The notes beneath the pieces were generated by a model that was not told where the DNA came from, made no database searches, and saw only the letters and a list, made by a program, of their open reading frames with translations. This document shows, in pieces, positions 6,270-15,063 of a DNA stretch of 64,000 bases. The translations under genes and the position numbers were made by a program. The first letter of the stretch is position 1, and each line of letters opens with the position of its first letter. Origin of the DNA: Magnetospirillum gryphiswaldense MSR-1 v2 (lineage in GTDB: Bacteria; Pseudomonadota; Alphaproteobacteria; Rhodospirillales; Magnetospirillaceae); assembly GCF_000513295.1 (NCBI RefSeq), contig NC_023065.1, positions 2,774,501-2,838,500 of the forward strand. Direction: 5' to 3'.

Positions 6270-6303
6270 GGCCGCAATCTAGCGCCAACGGAGCTTGCAC
6301 GCC

Positions 6304-7116
6304 ATGAAAGACCCTATCGCCACCCTGCCGCCGGTCCCCCGCAGCTATGGGATGGTCAACTGGCTGGGGTTCTATACCCTGTTGGCCAAGGAGGTGCGCC
6401 GCTTCCTCAAGGTCTATTTCCAGACCATCATGGCCCCGGTGGTGACGACGCTGCTGTTTCTGGCGGTGTTCGCCCTGGCGCTCGGTCGGGTGGCGGCGGA
6501 TGTGCACGGCGTGCCCTTCGTCGAGTTCCTGGCGCCGGGCCTGATCATGATGGCCATGGTGCAGAACGCCTTCGCCAACACCTCGTCGTCGCTGATCATC
6601 GCCAAGGTCCAAGGCAATATCGTTGATATGCTGATGCCGCCCCTGTCGGCGACGGAACAGACCCTGGCGGTGGCCTTGGGCGGGGTGATCCGCGGCGTGG
6701 TGGTGGGACTGGTGGTCGGGCTGGTGATGACGTTGTTCGTCAATGTCCATGTGCACGACGCCTTCTTCATCGTCTTCCATGCGGTGATGGGGTCGTTGCT
6801 GCTGTCGCTTCTGGGCATGGTCGGCGGCATCTGGGCCGACAAGTTCGACCACATGGCGGCGGTGACCAATTTCATCGTCACGCCGCTGTCGTTCCTGTCC
6901 GGAACCTTCTACACCATCGACCGCCTGCCGGAAGGCTTTCACGCCATCGCCCTGGCCAATCCATTCTTTTACATGATCGACGGTTTCCGCTATGGCTTCA
7001 TCGGTCATGCCGACGGATCGCTGGCGGTGGGATTGATGGTGGTGGGACTGGCCGATCTGGCCCTGCTGGCGCTGACCTGGCGCATGCTGTCCACCGGCTA
7101 TAAACTGAAGGCCTAA
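6304..7116 (+). CDS. ABC-2 type transporter permease
   Basis: A 270-residue polytopic inner-membrane permease of the ABC-2 class (YadH/NodJ/DrrB-like), with six hydrophobic segments. The N-terminal VNWLGFYTLLAKEVRRFLKVYFQTIMAPVV amphipathic-to-membrane transition and the loop around GTFYTIDRLPEGF before the C-terminal helices are family marks. Members pair with a separate ATPase to export drugs, polysaccharide or other amphiphiles. No ATPase gene is adjacent here: recX lies upstream and the convergent hyf-like operon downstream, so the partner is elsewhere or lies beyond a rearrangement. Start ATG 6304 has GGAG about ten bases upstream; a TTG at 6295 is less likely. Confidence 0.85.
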   Translation: MKDPIATLPPVPRSYGMVNWLGFYTLLAKEVRRFLKVYFQTIMAPVVTTLLFLAVFALALGRVAADVHGVPFVEFLAPGLIMMAMVQNAFANTSSSLIIAKVQGNIVDMLMPPLSATEQTLAVALGGVIRGVVVGLVVGLVMTLFVNVHVHDAFFIVFHAVMGSLLLSLLGMVGGIWADKFDHMAAVTNFIVTPLSFLSGTFYTIDRLPEGFHAIALANPFFYMIDGFRYGFIGHADGSLAVGLMVVGLADLALLALTWRMLSTGYKLKA

Positions 7117-7643
7117 CCGTCCACCGCCTCCAGCAGCGCCAGCAGACCGGCGATGATGTTGATGGGGGTGGGCGGACAGCCGGGGATGGTCATGTCCACC
7201 GGCACGATGGCAGCCGCACCGCCGGCCACGGCGTAAGAGCCGGCGAAGCAGCCGCCGTCGATGGCGCAATCGCCCATGGCCACCACCCAACGCGGTTCCG
7301 GCGTTGCCTCCACCGTACGGCGCAGGGCTTCCGCCATGTTCCAGCTGACCGGGCCGGTGACCAGCAGCACATCGGCATGGCGCGGGCTGGCGACAAACTT
7401 GATACCGAAGCGTTCCAGGTCGTAGACCGGGTGGTTGACGGCGTGGATTTCCAGCTCGCAGCCATTGCATGACCCGGCATCCACCGCGCGGATGGCCAAG
7501 GACCGGCCCAGCTTGGCCTGGGCGGCCAGCCCCAGGCTGTCGGCCAGTTCGCGCAACGCGGCTTCCGCCGGATTGAATTTGTCCTTGGTCGTATGTGGGC
7601 GCAGCAGGTGGCGAGCCAGCATTTTGGCGATGGGCGGAATCAT
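7113..7643 (-). CDS. hyfI-like: Hydrogenase-4-type small subunit (NuoB/HyfI-like)
   Basis: A 176-residue iron-sulfur subunit homologous to NuoB, HycG and HyfI, expected on the cytoplasmic face of a membrane complex. It keeps the ligands of the proximal [4Fe-4S] cluster: CNGC (C59, C62), GDCAIDGGC (C126) and PGCPPTP (C156). So electrons can still reach the large subunit even though that subunit lacks nickel ligands. The ATG at 7643 overlaps the stop of the large-subunit gene (ATGA), showing translational coupling, and favours this start over upstream in-frame codons. It is the last gene of the six-gene operon and overlaps the convergent permease end by four bases. Confidence 0.88.
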   Translation of the reverse strand: MIPPIAKMLARHLLRPHTTKDKFNPAEAALRELADSLGLAAQAKLGRSLAIRAVDAGSCNGCELEIHAVNHPVYDLERFGIKFVASPRHADVLLVTGPVSWNMAEALRRTVEATPEPRWVVAMGDCAIDGGCFAGSYAVAGGAAAIVPVDMTIPGCPPTPINIIAGLLALLEAVDG

Positions 7644-9157
7644 AGGTCGTGGCCCGAATAGGAACAGTTGAACGACTTGTTGCACAGCGGAAAGTCGGCG
7701 ACGATGTTGCCCTCGATCGCCGCTTCCAACAGCGGCCACTGGAACCAGGACGGATCGTGCGGATGGGCGCGGACCACCTTGCCGGTTTCCGACAAGCGCA
7801 CCCAAAAGGCCACCTCACCGCGGAACGATTCCACCAGCGCCACGCCCTCGCCGGCGCGCATGGGCAGCGCCGTCAGGAAAGCGCCGCCGGGCAGGCCGGT
7901 CAAAATCTGCTCGATCAGCGACAGCGACGCCCGCACCTCCTCGATGCGGATCTGCACGCGGGCATGGACGTCACCCTCGGCCAGCACCGGAATGGTGAAA
8001 TCCAGATCGTCATAGGGCGGATAGCCGGGCATACGGCGGGCATCGACGCTGCGCGACGAGGCCCGGCCGACAAAGCCGGAGACGGCGAAACGATGGGCCA
8101 AGGTGCCCTGGATCGTACCGGTGCCGGTGGTGCGGTCCAACAGCGACGGCGTCTGCTCGTAAAGCGCCACCGCCCGCTTGAAGCCGTGCCGCAGGCGGGG
8201 CAGCAGCGCCGCCAGCCTTTGCCGCCCGGCTTCGTCCAAATCCATGCTGACGCCGCCGGGGACGACGCGGTCCATCAGCAGGCGGTGACCGAAAATGGCG
8301 TTATTCGCGGCCAATATCTGCTCGCGCAGCGCCCCCATGTGCGACAGCATGATGGCGAAAGCGGCGTCGTTGCAGATGGCGCCGATGTCGAACAGGTGGT
8401 TGGCGACCCGCTCCAGTTCGGCCATCAGGGCGCGCAGCCAATGGGCACGCGGCGGGGCATCCTGGCCCAAGGCGGCCTCGACCGCGCGGGCGAAGGCGAT
8501 GGCGTAGGCCACCGTGGCATCGCCCGACACCCTGCCGGCGATGCGGGCGGCATCCAGGATCGGCTTGCCGGCCAGCAGTCCCTCGATGCCCTTATGGACA
8601 TAGCCCAGGCGTTCTTCCAGCCGCACCACCGTTTCGCCCTGGCAGTGAAAGCGGAAATGCCCCGGTTCGATCACCCCGGCATGGACCGGGCCGACGGGGA
8701 TTTGATGCAAACCGTCGCCCTCGGCGGTGAGGAACTTATAGATATGGCGCCCGCCATCATACTGGCGCGGATGGCCCAGCGGATGGCTGACCCGCCAATG
8801 GCCGTGATCCAGCCACGGGCGCTGGTCCTCCAGCCCTTCAGGGATCACCCCCCACAAATCGCGGATGGCCCGTTCCAGCCGGATGGCTGCCGGGCGCACT
8901 TGGCCGAGCGCGAAGAAGGCACCGTCGGGGCAAGGATGCGAGGCGACGGCGATGGCGCCTGAATCCTCGCCGCGCAACAGCACGTGCACTTCCGCCGGCT
9001 CGCCCCATTCGGCCAGAATTTCCCAGTTGGACACGGTCATCTGTTCGGCCAACTGGCGCCAGCCCTTGGCATCCAGCTGATAGCGCGGCCACGGGCGGTG
9101 GTTGGCCACCTCGCGGCCCATGGACAGAAATTCCAGCAGGGTGACGTTTCCCATCAT
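7640..9157 (-). CDS. hyfG-like: Hydrogenase-4-type large subunit without canonical Ni ligands
   Basis: A 505-residue fusion: an N-terminal NuoC-like domain (about residues 1-125) and a NuoD/HycE-like catalytic domain (LEERLGYVHKGIEGLL and onward). In true [NiFe] hydrogenases a CxxC pair lies in RxCGxC near the start of the catalytic domain and another in DPCxxC at the C-terminus. Here the first motif reads RVSGDA (residues 209-214), with both cysteines gone. The C-terminus ends PLCNKSFNCSYSGHDL, with cysteines 492 and 498 spaced CX5C. This matches the hydrogenase-related Ehr group, so hydrogen turnover is unlikely. The start is one of two adjacent ATGs (9157, 9154), seven bases after the stop of the preceding gene. 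Confidence 0.88.
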   Translation of the reverse strand: MMGNVTLLEFLSMGREVANHRPWPRYQLDAKGWRQLAEQMTVSNWEILAEWGEPAEVHVLLRGEDSGAIAVASHPCPDGAFFALGQVRPAAIRLERAIRDLWGVIPEGLEDQRPWLDHGHWRVSHPLGHPRQYDGGRHIYKFLTAEGDGLHQIPVGPVHAGVIEPGHFRFHCQGETVVRLEERLGYVHKGIEGLLAGKPILDAARIAGRVSGDATVAYAIAFARAVEAALGQDAPPRAHWLRALMAELERVANHLFDIGAICNDAAFAIMLSHMGALREQILAANNAIFGHRLLMDRVVPGGVSMDLDEAGRQRLAALLPRLRHGFKRAVALYEQTPSLLDRTTGTGTIQGTLAHRFAVSGFVGRASSRSVDARRMPGYPPYDDLDFTIPVLAEGDVHARVQIRIEEVRASLSLIEQILTGLPGGAFLTALPMRAGEGVALVESFRGEVAFWVRLSETGKVVRAHPHDPSWFQWPLLEAAIEGNIVADFPLCNKSFNCSYSGHDL

Positions 9158-9164
9158 GGCCGCA

Positions 9165-10658
9165 TCATCCCAACAGTTTCGCCACGTGTTCGAACCACCG
9201 GACCAGCGGCGCGGGCAGATACAGACCGGCCACCACCACCAGCCCCACATGCAGCAGCAGCGGTGTATAGGCCAGTACCGTGCCGAAAGTCGTTTGCTGG
9301 CCGTGCGCATGACGCGGCATGGGCGGCGGGGCACCGAAGATCATCGCCTGCAAGCGCATGATCAGGGCGGCGAAGGCCACCAGCAAGGCGATGATCAGCG
9401 GAATGGCCAGCAAGGGCTGGCGGGCGAAGGTGGAACTGACCACCAGGAACTCGCTCATGAACACGCCCATGGGCGGCAGGCCGGCGATGGCCAGGACAGC
9501 GATGGCGAAAGTCCAGCCCAGCACCGGATGGCTGACGGTCAGGCCGCGAATCTCATTCAGCCGCTTGGTGCCGCCGTTCTGGGTGATGGCGCCGACGGCG
9601 AAGAAGATGCCCGACTTGGTCAACGAATGCATGGTCATGTGCAACAGCCCGGCGAAATTGGCCAAAGGCCCGCCCATGCCGAAAGCGAAGGTGATCAGCC
9701 CCATGTGTTCGATGGAGGAATAGGCGAACAGGCGCTTGATGTCGCCGCGCCGGTACAGCATGAAACCGGACAGGAACAGACTGGACAACCCCATCAGGAT
9801 CATCAGCGGCCCCGGCGCCAAGGTATCGGGATTGGCGGAGATCAGCATCTTGAAGCGCAGCAGGGCATAAAGCGCCACGTTCAACAGCAGCCCCGACAGC
9901 ACCGCCGAAATGGGCGTCGGCCCCTCGGCATGGGCGTCGGGCAGCCAGGCGTGCAAGGGTGCCAGCCCAACCTTGGTGCCATAGCCGACCAGCAGGAAGA
10001 CGAAGGCCAGATTGAGCAGATCGGGGTGGAAGCGCGCCGCCTGCTTGATCAACAAGGTCCAGGCCATGGCGTCGGCGCCGTCGCCCATCACCGGCTGCGC
10101 CGCCAGATAGACCAAGGTGGTGCCGAACAGGGCCAGACCGATGCCGACCGAACACAGGATGAAGTATTTCCACGCCGCTTCGATGGCTTCACGGGTGCGA
10201 TAGAGACTGACCATCAGCACGGTGGTCAGGGTCGCCGCCTCCACCGCCACCCACATCACCCCGGTATTGTTGGCGGTCAACGCCAGCAGCATGGTGAACA
10301 GGAAAGCCTGATACATGGAATGATAGAAGCGCAGGTGCAGATCGGACAGGCGGGCGGAATCCGCCTCGCGCGCGATATAGCCGGCGGAAAAGATGGCGGT
10401 GGTGAAACCGACGAAGGTGGTCAGCGCCACCAGATAGATGTTGAAATCGTCGATGAACAGCAGCCTGGTGTCGGGCGGACGATGGCTGAACAGCGACAGG
10501 CTGGCGGCGAAGGTGGCGCCCGAGACGGCGATGTTCAGCCACGACGCCAGCCGCCAGCCGGGCAGCACCGCCAGGAAACCGGCGGACGCCAGCGGAATGG
10601 CCAGGATCAGCAGCAGCGGGTTGTCGGACAAGGCGATGATCAAGGCATCCAGGCTCAT
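9165..10658 (-). CDS. hyfF-like: Proton-pumping antiporter-like subunit (HyfF-like)
   Basis: A 497-residue polytopic membrane protein of the NuoL/M/N and Mrp antiporter family, most like HyfF. About 13-14 hydrophobic helices are visible. Conserved ion-path features include the charged WVAVEAATLTTVLMV (glutamate in the TM5-equivalent), the lysine in YGTKVGLAPLHAWLPDAHAEGPTPISA, and KRLFAYSSIEHMGLI. It probably moves protons, or sodium, coupled to redox chemistry in the peripheral arm. Its start overlaps the end of the hyfE-like gene by four bases. Confidence 0.9.
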   Translation of the reverse strand: MSLDALIIALSDNPLLLILAIPLASAGFLAVLPGWRLASWLNIAVSGATFAASLSLFSHRPPDTRLLFIDDFNIYLVALTTFVGFTTAIFSAGYIAREADSARLSDLHLRFYHSMYQAFLFTMLLALTANNTGVMWVAVEAATLTTVLMVSLYRTREAIEAAWKYFILCSVGIGLALFGTTLVYLAAQPVMGDGADAMAWTLLIKQAARFHPDLLNLAFVFLLVGYGTKVGLAPLHAWLPDAHAEGPTPISAVLSGLLLNVALYALLRFKMLISANPDTLAPGPLMILMGLSSLFLSGFMLYRRGDIKRLFAYSSIEHMGLITFAFGMGGPLANFAGLLHMTMHSLTKSGIFFAVGAITQNGGTKRLNEIRGLTVSHPVLGWTFAIAVLAIAGLPPMGVFMSEFLVVSSTFARQPLLAIPLIIALLVAFAALIMRLQAMIFGAPPPMPRHAHGQQTTFGTVLAYTPLLLHVGLVVVAGLYLPAPLVRWFEHVAKLLG

Positions 10659-11320
10659 GACCGATCCCCGCGATAGCTTTCCAGATAGGCCACGTCCAGC
10701 GAATCGAAGCGCTCGCGGATACGGAAGAAGAAGATGCCGAACAAGGTCATGGCCACCAGCACCGAGAAGGCGATGGAGATTTCCACCACCAAGGGCATGC
10801 CCTTGGCCGAGACGGCGGCCAGGATCAGACCGTTTTCCAGGGCCATGAAGCCGACCACCTGGGTCACCGCGTTGCGGCGGGTGATCATCATCAACATGCC
10901 CAGCAGCACCACGCTCATGGCCAGAGCCAGGGATTCGCGGGTCAGCGCCGCCGCCGCAGCGGTCACCGGCAGCACCAGCATGATTGACAGGGCCACCAGG
11001 GCGACGCCGACGATCATGGTCCAGCCGATGGACAAGGCCGTCTCCACCGCCCGGTGGATGCCTAAGCGCTCCACCAGCCAGTGCAGCGCGAAGGGCACGG
11101 CGATGGCCTTGAACAGAAGCGCGATGGCCGCGGTGAAATAAAGGTGCGGCGCGTCTTGCACATGCGCCTGCCAGGCGGCGGCGGCGGCCAGGGCCAGGGC
11201 CTGGAAGGCGAAGCTGTTGAGCACGGCGAACAGCCGGCGCTGATACAGCAGGCTGAACCCGGCCATCAGCACGGTGGCACCGATCAGATGGGCGATGTCA
11301 TAGCTGAATTGCTGGTTCAT
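10655..11320 (-). CDS. hyfE-like: HyfE-like membrane subunit
   Basis: A 221-residue membrane protein with about seven hydrophobic helices. It resembles HyfE of hydrogenase 4, whose C-terminal half is related to NuoK and MrpC: NAVTQVVGFMALENGLILAA matches the NuoK-type ENGL helix with its buried glutamate. Its ATG at 11320 overlaps the stop of the hyfC-like gene (ATGA), and its own end overlaps the next gene by four bases. This tight coupling supports equal production of the membrane subunits. Confidence 0.87.
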   Translation of the reverse strand: MNQQFSYDIAHLIGATVLMAGFSLLYQRRLFAVLNSFAFQALALAAAAAWQAHVQDAPHLYFTAAIALLFKAIAVPFALHWLVERLGIHRAVETALSIGWTMIVGVALVALSIMLVLPVTAAAAALTRESLALAMSVVLLGMLMMITRRNAVTQVVGFMALENGLILAAVSAKGMPLVVEISIAFSVLVAMTLFGIFFFRIRERFDSLDVAYLESYRGDRS

Positions 11321-12267
11321 CACACCGCCTCGGAAACGTAAAGGAAGATGGTGGCCAGCAACCCCAACAGCAGGGCGCCGCCCAGGAAATCGGCATAGCG
11401 GAACACCCGCATCTTGGCGATGGAGGTCTCGAACACCGCCAGGGCGCTGGCCAGCAGGAAGGTCTTGGCCAGGAACGCGCCCATGCCCACCAGCACCCCC
11501 AGCGGCCCGGCGCCGGGCTGGGCGATGCCCCAGGGCGCGAACAAGGTGGCGATGAGGGCGATGAACAAGGTTAGCCGCACCATGCTGGCCGCCTCGATCA
11601 TGGCCAGATGACGACCGGAATATTCCAACACCATGGCTTCGTGCACCATGGTCAGTTCCAGATGGGTGGCCGGGTTGTCGATGGGGATGCGCCCGTTCTC
11701 GGCGATGGCGACCATGACCAGGGCGGCCAGGGCCAAGCCCAGACTGACTTCCACCCCCACATTGCCGGCGAGGACGAAGGCGACGATCTGGCCCGGCGCC
11801 GTGGTCCCCGAGATCAGCGACAGTGAAAAGGTCACCATCAGCATGGCCGGCTCGGCCAGAGAGGCGATCAGCATCTCGCGGCTGGCGCCCAGGCCGCCGA
11901 AGGCGGTGCCCACATCCATGCCGGCCAGCGCCGTCCAGAACCGGCCCACCGCCAGCAAAGCCACCAGGGCGATCAGATCGGCCGCCGGGGCCAGCACCAT
12001 GTTGGTGGTGAAGGTCGGCACGATGCAGGCCGCCAGCCAGACGCTGGCGAAGGTGACGTAAGGGGCGGCGCGGAAAATCCAACTGGCCGAATGGGCGACG
12101 ATGGCTTCCTTTTGCAGCAGCCGATAAAGGTCGCGATAGGGCTGGATCGGCGACGGCCCGCGCCGTCCGTTCAGCCGGGCTTTCACCCAACGGACATAGC
12201 CGGTGATCAAGGGCGCCAGCGCCACCACCAGGATGATTTGCAGGACTTGCCAGATCATCGCGTTCAT
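11320..12267 (-). CDS. hyfC-like: HyfC/NuoH-like membrane subunit
   Basis: A 315-residue membrane protein of the NuoH/HycD/HyfC family, the piece that joins the peripheral redox arm to the antiporter subunits. Family marks are the N-terminal VKARLNGRRGPSPIQPYRDLYRLLQKE on the cytoplasmic side and the conserved acidic loop ENGRIPIDNPATHLELTMVHEAM. About eight helices can be traced. Starts and stops overlap both neighbours by four bases. Confidence 0.92.
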   Translation of the reverse strand: MNAMIWQVLQIILVVALAPLITGYVRWVKARLNGRRGPSPIQPYRDLYRLLQKEAIVAHSASWIFRAAPYVTFASVWLAACIVPTFTTNMVLAPAADLIALVALLAVGRFWTALAGMDVGTAFGGLGASREMLIASLAEPAMLMVTFSLSLISGTTAPGQIVAFVLAGNVGVEVSLGLALAALVMVAIAENGRIPIDNPATHLELTMVHEAMVLEYSGRHLAMIEAASMVRLTLFIALIATLFAPWGIAQPGAGPLGVLVGMGAFLAKTFLLASALAVFETSIAKMRVFRYADFLGGALLLGLLATIFLYVSEAV

Positions 12268-14270
12268 AGCTGTTGCCTCACCGCCACCACCAACAGCATG
12301 AACACCAAGGTCAGGAACATCATCAGCAGATAACCGCGCACGGTCAGGTATTGCAGCCGGTTGACGTGGTCGGCGATCCAGCCGATGACCCGACCCAGGG
12401 GGGCGTACAGGCCCGACCAGATGGGATCGAACATGGTGACCTTATGGGTGGCGGGGGCATCGTCGCCCGGCTCGGGCATAACCACCGTTTCCCGCGCCTG
12501 GAAGATGGTGTGACCGAAGGCCCGGCGCAGCGGCTGGGCAAAGGATTGGCTGGTGTACTGGGTCTGGGGGATGTCCTCGGGATGGCCGCAATCCCACGGA
12601 TCGGCCCGGCGGATGGCCTGGGTGCCCAGACGGTGCACGGTGAAGATGGCGATGGCGAACAGGGCCAGCCCGAACATGACCAGGATGGTGCCGGAATAGG
12701 CGCCGCGGGTGGCCGAGACCGGCGATAGCCACGGCCAGCCCAGATCGGCGGAAACGGCGAACTGGACGCCGGTCAAAGGCTGCACCGCATGCGACAGGGC
12801 GTCGGTGACGGTGACCGGGATGACGCCGAGCACCACGCACAGCACCGCCAGCACCACCATGGACCAGCGCATGCCGAAGCTGACCTCGGTCGCCTGGGCG
12901 GCATCGGTGGAACGGGGGCGGCCCAAAAAGGCGATGCCATAGGCGCGGACGAAGCAGGTGGCGGCCAGCGCTGCGGCCAGGGCAAGAAAGGCGCCGACCA
13001 CGGGGACGCCGAACTTCATCGCCCAATGGGGCATGGCCGGTCCCTTGAACAACGATTGCAGGATCAGCCATTCCGAGACGAAGCCGTTCAACGGCGGCAG
13101 GGCGGAAATGGCGGCGGCGCCGACCAGAAAGGCGGTGCCGGTCCACGGCATGCGCTTGAGCAATCCGCCCAAAACGGTCAGCGACCGGTGGCCGGTGGCG
13201 CTGATGACGGCGCCGGCGCCCAGAAACAGCAGGGTCTTGAACACCGAATGGTTAGCCATGTGATACAGGCTGGCGACCAGGGCCAGGGCGGCCAGTTCGG
13301 TCTGACCGTCGCCCTTGAAGGCGATGGCCAAGCCCAGACCGATGACGGCGACGCCGATATTTTCCACGGTGGAATAGGCCAGCAGGGTTTTCAGATCGTC
13401 CTGCAATACCGCATAGAGCACGCCCATGACGGCGGTGATCCCCCCCACCAGCATCAGGCCAGCGCCCCAATGCCACGACAAGGTGCCGTGCAGGTCGAGC
13501 AGGATACGGATCATGCCGTAAAGCGCCACCTTGGTCATGACCCCGCTCATCAGGGCCGAGACATGGCTGGGGGCGGCGGGATGGGCCAAGGGCAGCCAGG
13601 CGTGCAGCGGCACCAGCCCGGCCTTGGACCCGGCGCCCATGATGGCCAGCAGCGCCACCAGGAAACCGCCCATCAGCCCCAAATCCTTGATGCGCATGGC
13701 GTCGAAGGTGAAATCGCCGCCGGGCCCGGCCATCAGGCCGAAGGCCGGCAACAGACAGAAGGTGCCGAAGGCGGCCATGATCAGATAGACGTTGCCGGCC
13801 TTGCGGTTTTCTTCTTCCGTGTGGTCGGACACCACCATCAGCCACGACGCCAGCGACATGAATTCCCACGAGACCAGGAAGATGAAGGCGTCATCGGCCA
13901 TCAACACCAGATTCATGGCCAGCAGGAACAGGGGGAAGAACGGGGTGACGCGGCGGCGTTGCGGCAGATGCTGGCTGTAGCCGACGGCGAAGGCGGAAGC
14001 AGCGGCGGCGCCCAGATTGATCATCAGCATGAACAGCGCCGACAGATTGTCGATGCGGAAATGCGCCTTCAGCCACGGCAGGCCCAAGGGCAACACCAGC
14101 CGGGGCGAGGCATCATGGCCGCCCAGATAGGTCAACCCGCCGGCCAGCAAGGCGATGGAGGCGACGAAGCAGCCGGCATAGGTGATGGAATGGCCCACAT
14201 CGCGCCTGCCGACCAGCACCGCGAACAGGGCCAGCAGCGGCAACGACAGCAAGGCGCCGGCGATCAGCAT
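12264..14270 (-). CDS. hyfB-like: HyfB-like proton-pumping subunit, first gene of the operon
   Basis: A 668-residue antiporter-like membrane subunit, the length of HyfB. It has about 16 helices, the AGSKAGLVPLHAWLPLAHPAAPSHVSALMSG core with its lysine, FLVSWEFMSLASWLMV with its helix glutamate, and LLAYSTVENIGVA. The complex therefore has two antiporter-like subunits plus the HyfE type. I prefer ATG 14270 because GGGAAG precedes it at good distance; a TTG at 14333 would add 21 residues. It leads the operon hyfB-C-E-F-G-I. No HyfA or HyfH polyferredoxin, formate dehydrogenase or hydrogenase maturation gene is present. Confidence 0.9.
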   Translation of the reverse strand: MLIAGALLSLPLLALFAVLVGRRDVGHSITYAGCFVASIALLAGGLTYLGGHDASPRLVLPLGLPWLKAHFRIDNLSALFMLMINLGAAAASAFAVGYSQHLPQRRRVTPFFPLFLLAMNLVLMADDAFIFLVSWEFMSLASWLMVVSDHTEEENRKAGNVYLIMAAFGTFCLLPAFGLMAGPGGDFTFDAMRIKDLGLMGGFLVALLAIMGAGSKAGLVPLHAWLPLAHPAAPSHVSALMSGVMTKVALYGMIRILLDLHGTLSWHWGAGLMLVGGITAVMGVLYAVLQDDLKTLLAYSTVENIGVAVIGLGLAIAFKGDGQTELAALALVASLYHMANHSVFKTLLFLGAGAVISATGHRSLTVLGGLLKRMPWTGTAFLVGAAAISALPPLNGFVSEWLILQSLFKGPAMPHWAMKFGVPVVGAFLALAAALAATCFVRAYGIAFLGRPRSTDAAQATEVSFGMRWSMVVLAVLCVVLGVIPVTVTDALSHAVQPLTGVQFAVSADLGWPWLSPVSATRGAYSGTILVMFGLALFAIAIFTVHRLGTQAIRRADPWDCGHPEDIPQTQYTSQSFAQPLRRAFGHTIFQARETVVMPEPGDDAPATHKVTMFDPIWSGLYAPLGRVIGWIADHVNRLQYLTVRGYLLMMFLTLVFMLLVVAVRQQL

Positions 14271-14472
14271 GGCAAAAGGCTTCCCGGCCGCAAGCGGCCC
14301 AGGCGAATCGAAGCACGCACGAAAAACCTCCAACCCCGGACGGGGCGCTCTCCCGGATGCCGGCCTGTGGCGGCTTGATGATTTATTTTATTCAGGCGGG
14401 GCAAAGCTTAAACCAGCGGCTGGCCCGAGGACAAGGGGCTAACCGGCATCGGAAAGCTGATTAAACAATCCG

Positions 14473-15063
14473 TCAGAAACTGCGCCGCGCCCGCAAGGCG
14501 GCGCCGATAGTGCCGTCGTCGAGATAATCCAACTCGCCGCCCACCGGCACGCCATGGGCCAGCCCCGATACGGTAATACCGCAATCGGCAAGGAAATCGG
14601 CGATGTAATGGGCGGTGGTCTGGCCCTCGACCGTGGCCGGGGTGGCCACCACCACTTCACGGATGGAACCGTCCAGCCGTGCCCGCAGCCGGCCCAGGCC
14701 CAGATCGTCGGGGCCGATGCCGTCCAGCGCCGACAGCAAACCGCCCAACACGTGATAGCGCCCGCTGAACACGCCGGCCCGCTCCATCGCCCACAGGCTG
14801 CCGACGCCCTCGACCACGCACAGGATGGTCTGGTCGCGGCGGGGATCGGCACAGATGGAACAGGGATCGACGCTGTCGAAATTGCCGCAAACCGAACAGG
14901 TCTTGACGCTGTCGCCCACCGCGCTCAACGCCTTGGCCAGCGGTAGCAGCAGGGTTTCACGCTTTTCCACCAGATGCAGCGCCACCCGGCGGGCGGAACG
15001 CGGCCCCAAGCCGGGCAACCGCGACAGCAGTTGCATCAGGCGCTCGATCTCGGGGCCGACCAT
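14473..15063 (-). CDS. recR: Recombination protein RecR
   Basis: A 196-residue RecR, which with RecF/RecO loads RecA at single-strand gaps. Visible domains are the N-terminal helix-hairpin-helix ([19 protein letters not shown]), the zinc finger ([16 protein letters not shown], residues about 57-72) and the Toprim domain (ILCVVEG and the C-terminal [15 protein letters not shown]). Length is canonical. It is the third gene of the dnaX-ybaB-recR set, 15 bases after ybaB, an arrangement widely conserved in bacteria. Confidence 0.96.

Follow-up and report, generated by a model that had tools for sequence, protein, structure and literature searches.

The six-gene operon and its large subunit

We examined a 64,000-nucleotide stretch of the Magnetospirillum gryphiswaldense MSR-1 v2 genome (contig NC_023065.1, positions 2,774,501 to 2,838,500; hereafter, the window). 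On its minus strand, positions 7113-14270 hold six open reading frames (ORFs) in the order hyfB-C-E-F-G-I, the arrangement described in an earlier interpretation made from the letters of the window (the sequence-only reading). That reading had placed the operon in the energy-converting-hydrogenase-related (Ehr) group. Our analysis agrees: the operon very probably encodes an Ehr complex, which we take to be the same complex as Hyq of Azorhizobium caulinodans, and not a [NiFe]-hydrogenase. The six genes and two motif segments of hyfG are as follows.

12264..14270, minus strand: hyfB, antiporter-like subunit, 668 amino acids; Pfam PF00361 (Proton_antipo_M), NCBIfam NF005086 (813.7 bits, cut-off 667)
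11320..12267, minus strand: hyfC, NuoH-like subunit, 315 amino acids; Pfam PF00146 (NADHdh)
10655..11320, minus strand: hyfE, HyfE-like membrane subunit, 221 amino acids; NCBIfam NF008556 (85.5 bits, under the cut-off of 136), synteny
9165..10658, minus strand: hyfF, second antiporter-like subunit, 497 amino acids; Pfam PF00361, NCBIfam NF005043 (810.3 bits, cut-off 533)
7640..9157, minus strand: hyfG, fused NuoC-D-like large subunit, 505 amino acids; Pfam PF00346 (Complex1_49kDa) and PF00374 (NiFeSe_Hases), motifs, tree, fold match to 7z0s_E
8513..8533, minus strand: former N-terminal CxxC of hyfG, now R-V-S-G-D-A-T (residues 209-215); alignment with HycE RVCGICG, positions by hand
7643..7684, minus strand: C-terminal motif of hyfG, C-N-K-S-F-N-C-S-Y-S-G-H-D-L (residues 492-505); ungapped alignment with HycE and NuoCD, positions by hand
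7113..7643, minus strand: hyfI, NuoB-like subunit, 176 amino acids; Pfam PF01058 (Oxidored_q6)

The Pfam and NCBIfam matches agree with the subunit types named by the sequence-only reading: two antiporter-like subunits and NuoH-, HyfE-, NuoB- and NuoC-D-like ones. HyfB and HyfF pass the cut-offs of the NCBIfam "hydrogenase 4 subunit B/F" models. HyfE, whose gene was overlooked by automatic gene calling in the window, has weak matches that all fall below cut-off, and its assignment also draws on synteny. An alternative TTG start of hyfB is open at 14333. Genes overlap by 1-4 bases at B/C, C/E, E/F and G/I, and 7 bases separate hyfF from hyfG. The operon therefore has no space for a HyfH-, HyfD- or HyfA-like gene, and a polyferredoxin subunit is indeed missing. 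As also noted earlier, no maturation (hyp) or formate dehydrogenase gene accompanies the operon; none was recognised by eye in window positions 1-22000, with Pfam run on nine proteins, and the search for hyp genes did not extend to the rest of the genome. The genome also encodes complex I NuoD and other matches to NiFe-hydrogenase large subunits.

Alignment of HyfG with E. coli HycE, HyfG and NuoCD revealed none of the four cysteines that serve as Ni/Fe ligands; S211, A214, S499 and G502 stand in their places. The HycE motif RVCGIC reads RVSGDA at residues 209-214 (CGIC to SGDA), as the sequence-only reading had it, and DPCYSC reads NCSYSG (CYSC to SYSG). That reading also pointed to a C-terminal CX5C pair. 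The spacing exists (C492 and C498), but the two cysteines lie seven and one residues ahead of the first C-terminal ligand position and do not correspond to the ligand pair, S499 and G502. The pair is not strictly kept either: among 114 HyfG sequences (the window included, ten references left out), 17 have another residue at C492 and 5 at C498. We rejected it as a required metal pair. The HyfG chain stops in the alignment at the end of mature hydrogenases, judged by the protease cleavage site, and so has no C-terminal propeptide for a HycI/HyfK-type protease.

Despite the loss of the ligands, the pocket is strictly kept. D213, R446, D488, K494, N497, G502 and D504 are invariant in all 114 sequences, and E164, presumably the hydrogenase-type Glu of the first loop, and N493 are each present in 113 and S211 in 112. 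Cysteine occurs at the first ligand position in two sequences (L075 and L132), at the second in one (L111), and at the other two in none. The predicted structure of HyfG has a mean predicted local distance difference test (pLDDT) score of 82.9, and most of residues 141-188 and all of 482-505, which form the ligand loops, score below 50, so the former Ni pocket could not be inspected there.

A Foldseek search with this model returned HycE (chain 7z0s_E) as the best match, with a fold match to NuoCD as well, and MbhL (6cfw) was the second-best sequence match among solved structures. A remote homolog is chain 6u8y_L of Mbs, an enzyme that reduces sulfane sulfur. This homology would suit a complex acting on another small substrate such as sulfane sulfur. 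Alternatively, the complex might receive electrons from a formate dehydrogenase encoded elsewhere; a pairing of formate dehydrogenase with Ehr has been proposed for Margulisbacteria (PMC6349859). We consider either role unlikely: HycE and MbhL both outscore 6u8y_L as matches to HyfG, and the partly annotated clusters of neighbouring genes contained no recognisable fdh or sulfur gene.

The window operon shares with E. coli hydrogenase-4/formate hydrogenlyase-2 (Hyf) homologs of B, C, E, F, G and I and their relative order, but it lacks HyfA, HyfD, HyfH, HyfJ, HyfR and FocB, and its HyfG lacks the Ni ligands and propeptide. It shares the NuoB-, CD-, H- and L/M-like core of respiratory complex I but has no NuoA, E, F, G or I and thus no NADH module. 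MbhL of the Pyrococcus membrane-bound hydrogenase Mbh has a CGIC motif that HyfG does not, and Mbh has a ferredoxin-like subunit that is absent from the window operon. The related Mbs/Mbx combine a ferredoxin-like electron-input subunit with a sulfur-reducing site, and the window operon has no electron-input subunit.

Two genes outside the complex flank the operon.

14473..15063, minus strand: recR, upstream neighbour; Pfam RecR domains
6295..7116, plus strand: ABC-2 permease gene, convergent with hyfI; Pfam PF01061

Conservation and distribution of the complex

We collected the best 80 loci out of 93 confirmed relatives and surveyed 299 genomes of the phylum. At E <= 1e-40, 67 genomes had a match and 58, about one fifth of the sample, were counted as carrying Ehr/Hyq complexes (Ehr+). 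For 36 of these the ligand motifs were inspected directly, and the remainder were counted by score, one (G144) being a fragment. The nine matches left out comprise seven at 31-32%, of which five were read and have the ligands (the others are G199 and G258), and the divergent G039 and G295.

The order B-C-E-F-G-I is exact in 69 of 127 scanned loci, and 10 more have the same set with swaps or splits that apparently reflect overlapping reading segments. The other scanned loci are cut by locus ends, have an extra B-like segment, or are hydrogenase or complex I references. An order repeated over so many loci is not a chance arrangement. Across the 77 places whose orientation could be established, the start of hyfI follows that of hyfG by a median of 1542 bases; at this median spacing a HyfH-like gene would not fit between them.

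An unrooted tree built from 55 large subunits splits the Ehr rows from HycE/HyfG, MbhL, NuoD and CISC-type group 4 hydrogenases with SH-aLRT/UFBoot support of 100/100. An earlier tree of 75 rows gave the same split with a support of 98; it contained a mis-cut row (L259) and two very long branches on the Ehr side (L128 and L129). These three, the partial L153 and 16 rows with relatives retained were the 20 dropped. HyfG is thus separated from the group 4 hydrogenases in a comparison of the kind that the sequence-only reading had proposed, and it lacks their four cysteine ligands and propeptide, in keeping with the Ehr type. The tree bears on the split from hydrogenases, and the assignment to Ehr itself follows from features and published descriptions: like the window operon, Ehr complexes have group-4-like subunits, a large subunit without CxxC ligand pairs, and antiporter-like and NuoH-like membrane subunits.

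The redox and ion-path residues of the other subunits are also kept. The iron-sulfur subunit is intact, as the sequence-only reading had stated, with the 4Fe-4S ligands C59, C62, C126 and C156 of HyfI each present in at least 97% of 110 sequences. The same bound holds for E136, K216, K247 and E400 of HyfB (83 sequences) and for E140, K229, K348 and E403 of HyfF (114 sequences). In HyfC, H202, H209 and H220 are conserved in a loop (84 sequences) where E. coli HyfC and HycD differ. Together with the HyfG pocket, the HyfI cysteines argue against a complex whose redox part is a relic, whether a mere ion antiporter or a decaying hydrogenase. Such a relic would fit the absent catalytic ligands and the lack of recognised maturation genes alongside the operon. 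However, the C-terminal motif and pocket are nearly invariant, the HyfI cysteines persist, and the complex is retained whole in a 0.95-Mb genome described below. We regard a relic as very unlikely and an ion-moving redox complex as probable.

Several loci depart from the common pattern. L128 and L129, from the small alphaproteobacterial genomes G039 and G295, encode a very divergent relative without Ni ligands (RINAVD/RINALD, with an end of the SFG-LSTGVDL type) and without NKSFN, perhaps a second ligand-less lineage. L006, a contig in a Stygiobacter metagenome-assembled genome, bears an operon whose HyfG is 96% identical to that of the window and is probably mis-binned alphaproteobacterial DNA. 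In two f28 genomes (L134 and L138) a second HyfB-like antiporter gene, of 496 and 414 amino acids as read and perhaps cut, lies immediately ahead of hyfB. A gamma-carbonic-anhydrase-like gene, recognised by eye, precedes hyfB in G270 (L276:15303-15863), with a gene for a 659-amino-acid membrane-like protein further upstream. Reading frames are split in two segments in hyfF of L045 and in hyfG of L084 and L085, by frameshift or sequencing error.

On record are ligand-less Ehr complexes in Sulfobacillus (with six genes in synteny close to that of the large subunit; PMC4378227), comammox Nitrospira, Margulisbacteria and Candidate Phyla Radiation (CPR) bacteria. A sulfur-oxidizing gammaproteobacterium has a hydrogenase-4-like cluster without a ferredoxin subunit, for which its authors suggest a supercomplex with another oxidoreductase (PMC4136832); this is possibly another Ehr case.

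Hyq of Azorhizobium caulinodans and hydrogen exchange

The sequence-only reading described the Ehr group as known from genome surveys, which overlooks genetic work on the same genes in Azorhizobium caulinodans. The NifA-dependent hyqRBCEFGI genes were described by Ng et al. in 2009 (PMC2650096); a hyq deletion slowed diazotrophic growth by 21%, with no such effect in the presence of ammonium, and the authors inferred H2 recycling. Sprecher et al. in 2012 (PMC3357923) measured gas in whole cultures and reported Hyq-dependent H2 uptake at 20 µM O2 and H2 evolution below 1 µM. The rates for Hup- and Hup- Hyq- strains were 16 versus 540 pmol H2 per 1e9 cells per min at 20 µM O2, and 61,000 versus 14,000 below 1 µM (PMC3357923, Table 2). 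As its authors note, HyqG (504 amino acids) has neither of the CxxC motifs but retains Cys258, 491 and 497, and HyqI has a CxxC and two further cysteines (PMC3357923).

The window operon shares with Hyq the six genes, the BCEFGI order and the cysteine pattern without CxxC, and by spacing the three HyqG cysteines correspond to C262, C492 and C498. The published primer Hyq-B, translated by hand, gives a hyqR start of Met-Ile-Thr, like the XRE regulators ahead of Xanthobacter operons. Shared gene order, cysteine spacing and hyqR start led us to treat Hyq and the window's Ehr as one complex; HyqG was compared by description and the Xanthobacter relatives by sequence. The window operon differs from the Azorhizobium one in regulation: no hyqR-like regulator lies ahead of it, and the 450 bases searched contain no exact NifA box. 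Among 76 loci, the window included, none has an exact NifA box together with a sigma-54-like site (at most two mismatches; no positive control, and the L010 region was mis-cut), and eight have the NifA box alone. NifA control is thus unsupported as a family rule. Because nifH is found in just 10 of the 58 Ehr+ genomes as well, recycling of nitrogenase H2 is unlikely family-wide.

The Hyq-dependent H2 exchange is the strongest evidence against a non-hydrogenase reading, and it is literally the kind of operon-dependent hydrogen uptake and evolution that the sequence-only reading named as contrary to its own proposal. The Azorhizobium group proposes an H2:quinone oxidoreductase with a novel non-NiFe site that pumps protons and reverses at very low O2. 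Such an enzyme could be nickel-free and independent of Hyp maturation, with its site in the emptied NiFe pocket (S211, D213, N493, K494 and N497). The gas data and the slower diazotrophic growth speak for it, as do the three Hyq-type cysteines, all present in 92 of the 114 HyfG sequences. However, L106, L109 and L132 have none of the three and still keep K494 and N497, and the low incidence of nifH also speaks against the proposal. The authors themselves grade a Ni,Fe site "uncertain, if not unlikely" and report no cell-free assay; the deletion strain also lacks the regulator hyqR, and the word "complement" does not occur in their text (PMC3357923). Rhodopseudomonas palustris, listed as a hyq carrier (PMC3357923), is described in another report as encoding a single hydrogenase, an unexpressed uptake enzyme, and H2 builds up during its N2 fixation (PMC9973337); the conditions differ, and that strain's operon was not checked. 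Since the H2 exchange was measured as whole-culture gas, in a strain from which hyqR was co-deleted and for which we saw neither a cell-free assay nor complementation, we judge the H2 role of Hyq unproven and an H2:quinone oxidoreductase, including its nickel-free form, improbable. If true, it would constitute a new hydrogenase class and square the gas measurements in Azorhizobium with the absence of the ligands.

A reduced relative and the proposed reaction

NuoD is present in 34 of the 35 Ehr+ genomes searched (the window's excluded), and the sole exception is G179, a draft genome from the same family, with 946,554 bases in 49 contigs with 33% GC (first 929,646 bases). Its four genus mates have genomes of 5.7-7.1 Mb. 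All six Ehr genes of G179 are open, hyfC being split by a contig end with its halves at the ends of two contigs. Of the 96 invariant HyfG columns 92 are kept, as are the four HyfI cysteines, all eight residues tested in HyfF and six of the seven tested in HyfB (K247 is N). In contrast, complex I is reduced to pieces of nuoB, nuoC and nuoD. Own-genome queries for the positions of nuoA and nuoE-K, genes identified from their order and length, gave no match, nor did E. coli nuoE-I, and nuoL, M and N queries match the Ehr genes only. What is new here is that G179 retains all six Ehr genes while complex I is down to fragments. We found no published work, among that searched, linking Ehr with Hyq or with a genome lacking complex I.

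Other energy genes of G179 were also surveyed. No COX1-family match was found, versus three to five in each genus mate, nor any match to cydA, cyoB, pyruvate dehydrogenase E2, lpd, pyruvate:ferredoxin oxidoreductase, fldA, fdx or fpr; RuBisCO, nifH, soxB and coxL gave none, and hypB and hypD were not found (blastp, 817 ORFs). The HyfG query finds Ehr alone. Its genus mates have HycE-like (all four) and CISC-type (read in three of the four) group 4 hydrogenases with ligands, in addition to NuoD and Ehr; in L252-L254, from these genus mates, a separate group 4 hydrogenase type has the ligand motifs ERICSLC and DPCISC. Genes kept in G179 encode FixABCX, a 2[4Fe-4S] ferredoxin, Frd/Sdh A and B with a cytochrome subunit, six ATP synthase subunits, an H+-pyrophosphatase and a lactate permease. 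G179 is probably an anaerobic host-associated bacterium, and Ehr is the one redox-driven pump that we recognised in the cell.

We tentatively propose that Ehr/Hyq is a quinone reductase that pumps ions and receives its electrons from a low-potential carrier, a reading that falls a little short of an even chance. Donor, acceptor, direction and pumping are what we infer here; counted in favour are the ligand loss with a strictly kept pocket, the tree split, the HyfI cysteines and antiporter Glu and Lys residues, and the retention in G179. A soluble carrier, reduced ferredoxin or flavodoxin, would pass electrons to the single 4Fe-4S cluster of HyfI, which would be uncovered because the NuoI/HyfH subunit is missing. 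In species having bifurcating FixABCX, that complex may reduce the carrier. Electrons would leave at the cavity between HyfG, HyfI and HyfC to a membrane quinone, and the released energy would drive the E-channel and the two antiporter-like subunits. FixABCX, ferredoxin and Ehr could thus form a modular complex I whose sum is NADH:quinone oxidoreduction with pumping, which would account for the reduced relative losing complex I yet keeping Ehr.

Several points weigh against this proposal. The quinone-loop His and Tyr have roles in the quinone site of complex I; HyfG has the hydrogenase-type Glu loop in place of the His and also lacks the Tyr, so its residues give quinone binding no support. 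Of the E. coli quinone genes tried in G179, only UbiE matched, with a UbiA-family protein found by Pfam, so the quinone supply of that cell is uncertain. Its ferredoxin may be retained for IspG and IspH, both of which are present. The absences in G179 come from a draft genome and from E. coli queries that may miss divergent alphaproteobacterial genes, and [FeFe]-hydrogenases were not searched for. Full-length FixC occurs in 7 of 58 Ehr+ and 6 of 241 Ehr- genomes, a count that leaves out a broken fragment in the Ehr+ genome G291 and a 35% match in G166. We therefore rejected FixABCX as a universal donor, and another donor must serve in most species. Neighbour clustering over 110 loci gave no partner gene at a fixed place, in clusters that were partly annotated (sequences of 11 read). 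Margulisbacteria are reported to have Ehr without a full quinone pathway (PMC6349859).

Apart from the operon genes themselves and ORFs presumed to be antisense shadows, the only recurring neighbour is a small XRE regulator in 25 of the 110 loci, on the operon strand in 19 of the 21 that could be oriented; every other cluster reaches at most 11 loci. A different XRE-type regulator, recognised by eye, lies ahead of the operon in four of six f28 loci.

The complex might also run in reverse, quinol and proton-motive force reducing ferredoxin or another low-potential carrier for biosynthesis. This would fit autotrophs, and RuBisCO (PF00016, including RuBisCO-like proteins) is found in 37 of 58 Ehr+ genomes as against 57 of the 241 Ehr- ones (Fisher P = 2e-8, without correction for shared descent). 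The reported Ehr of Sulfobacillus and comammox Nitrospira and the slower growth of the Azorhizobium mutant on N2 (PMC2650096) are likewise consistent with it. However, the RuBisCO link is confounded, 23 of the 37 genomes coming from one family (31 Ehr+ genomes), and nifH, soxB (8 of 58) and coxL (2 of 58) show no significant association with Ehr. G179 keeps Ehr with no match to RuBisCO, nifH or COX1. We consider reverse flow unlikely.

The window operon is an ordinary, well-conserved instance of a known, functionally disputed complex type. The sequence-only reading identified the right kind of complex but did not take in the Hyq work; with that work the case becomes both more contested and more testable. 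Ehr/Hyq complexes are wide in the phylum, yet the published work found gives none of them an established reaction. Taken together, the Ehr surveys and the Hyq genetics expose a conflict: H2 exchange is reported for a complex that has none of the hydrogenase ligands. G179 offers a natural experiment in which complex I and heme-copper oxidases are lost, as are group 4 hydrogenases within the searches made, and Ehr is the complex-I-type complex retained; were Ehr/Hyq a nickel-free hydrogenase, this bacterium would consume host-derived H2. The Hyq conflict and G179 together make the question of function testable.

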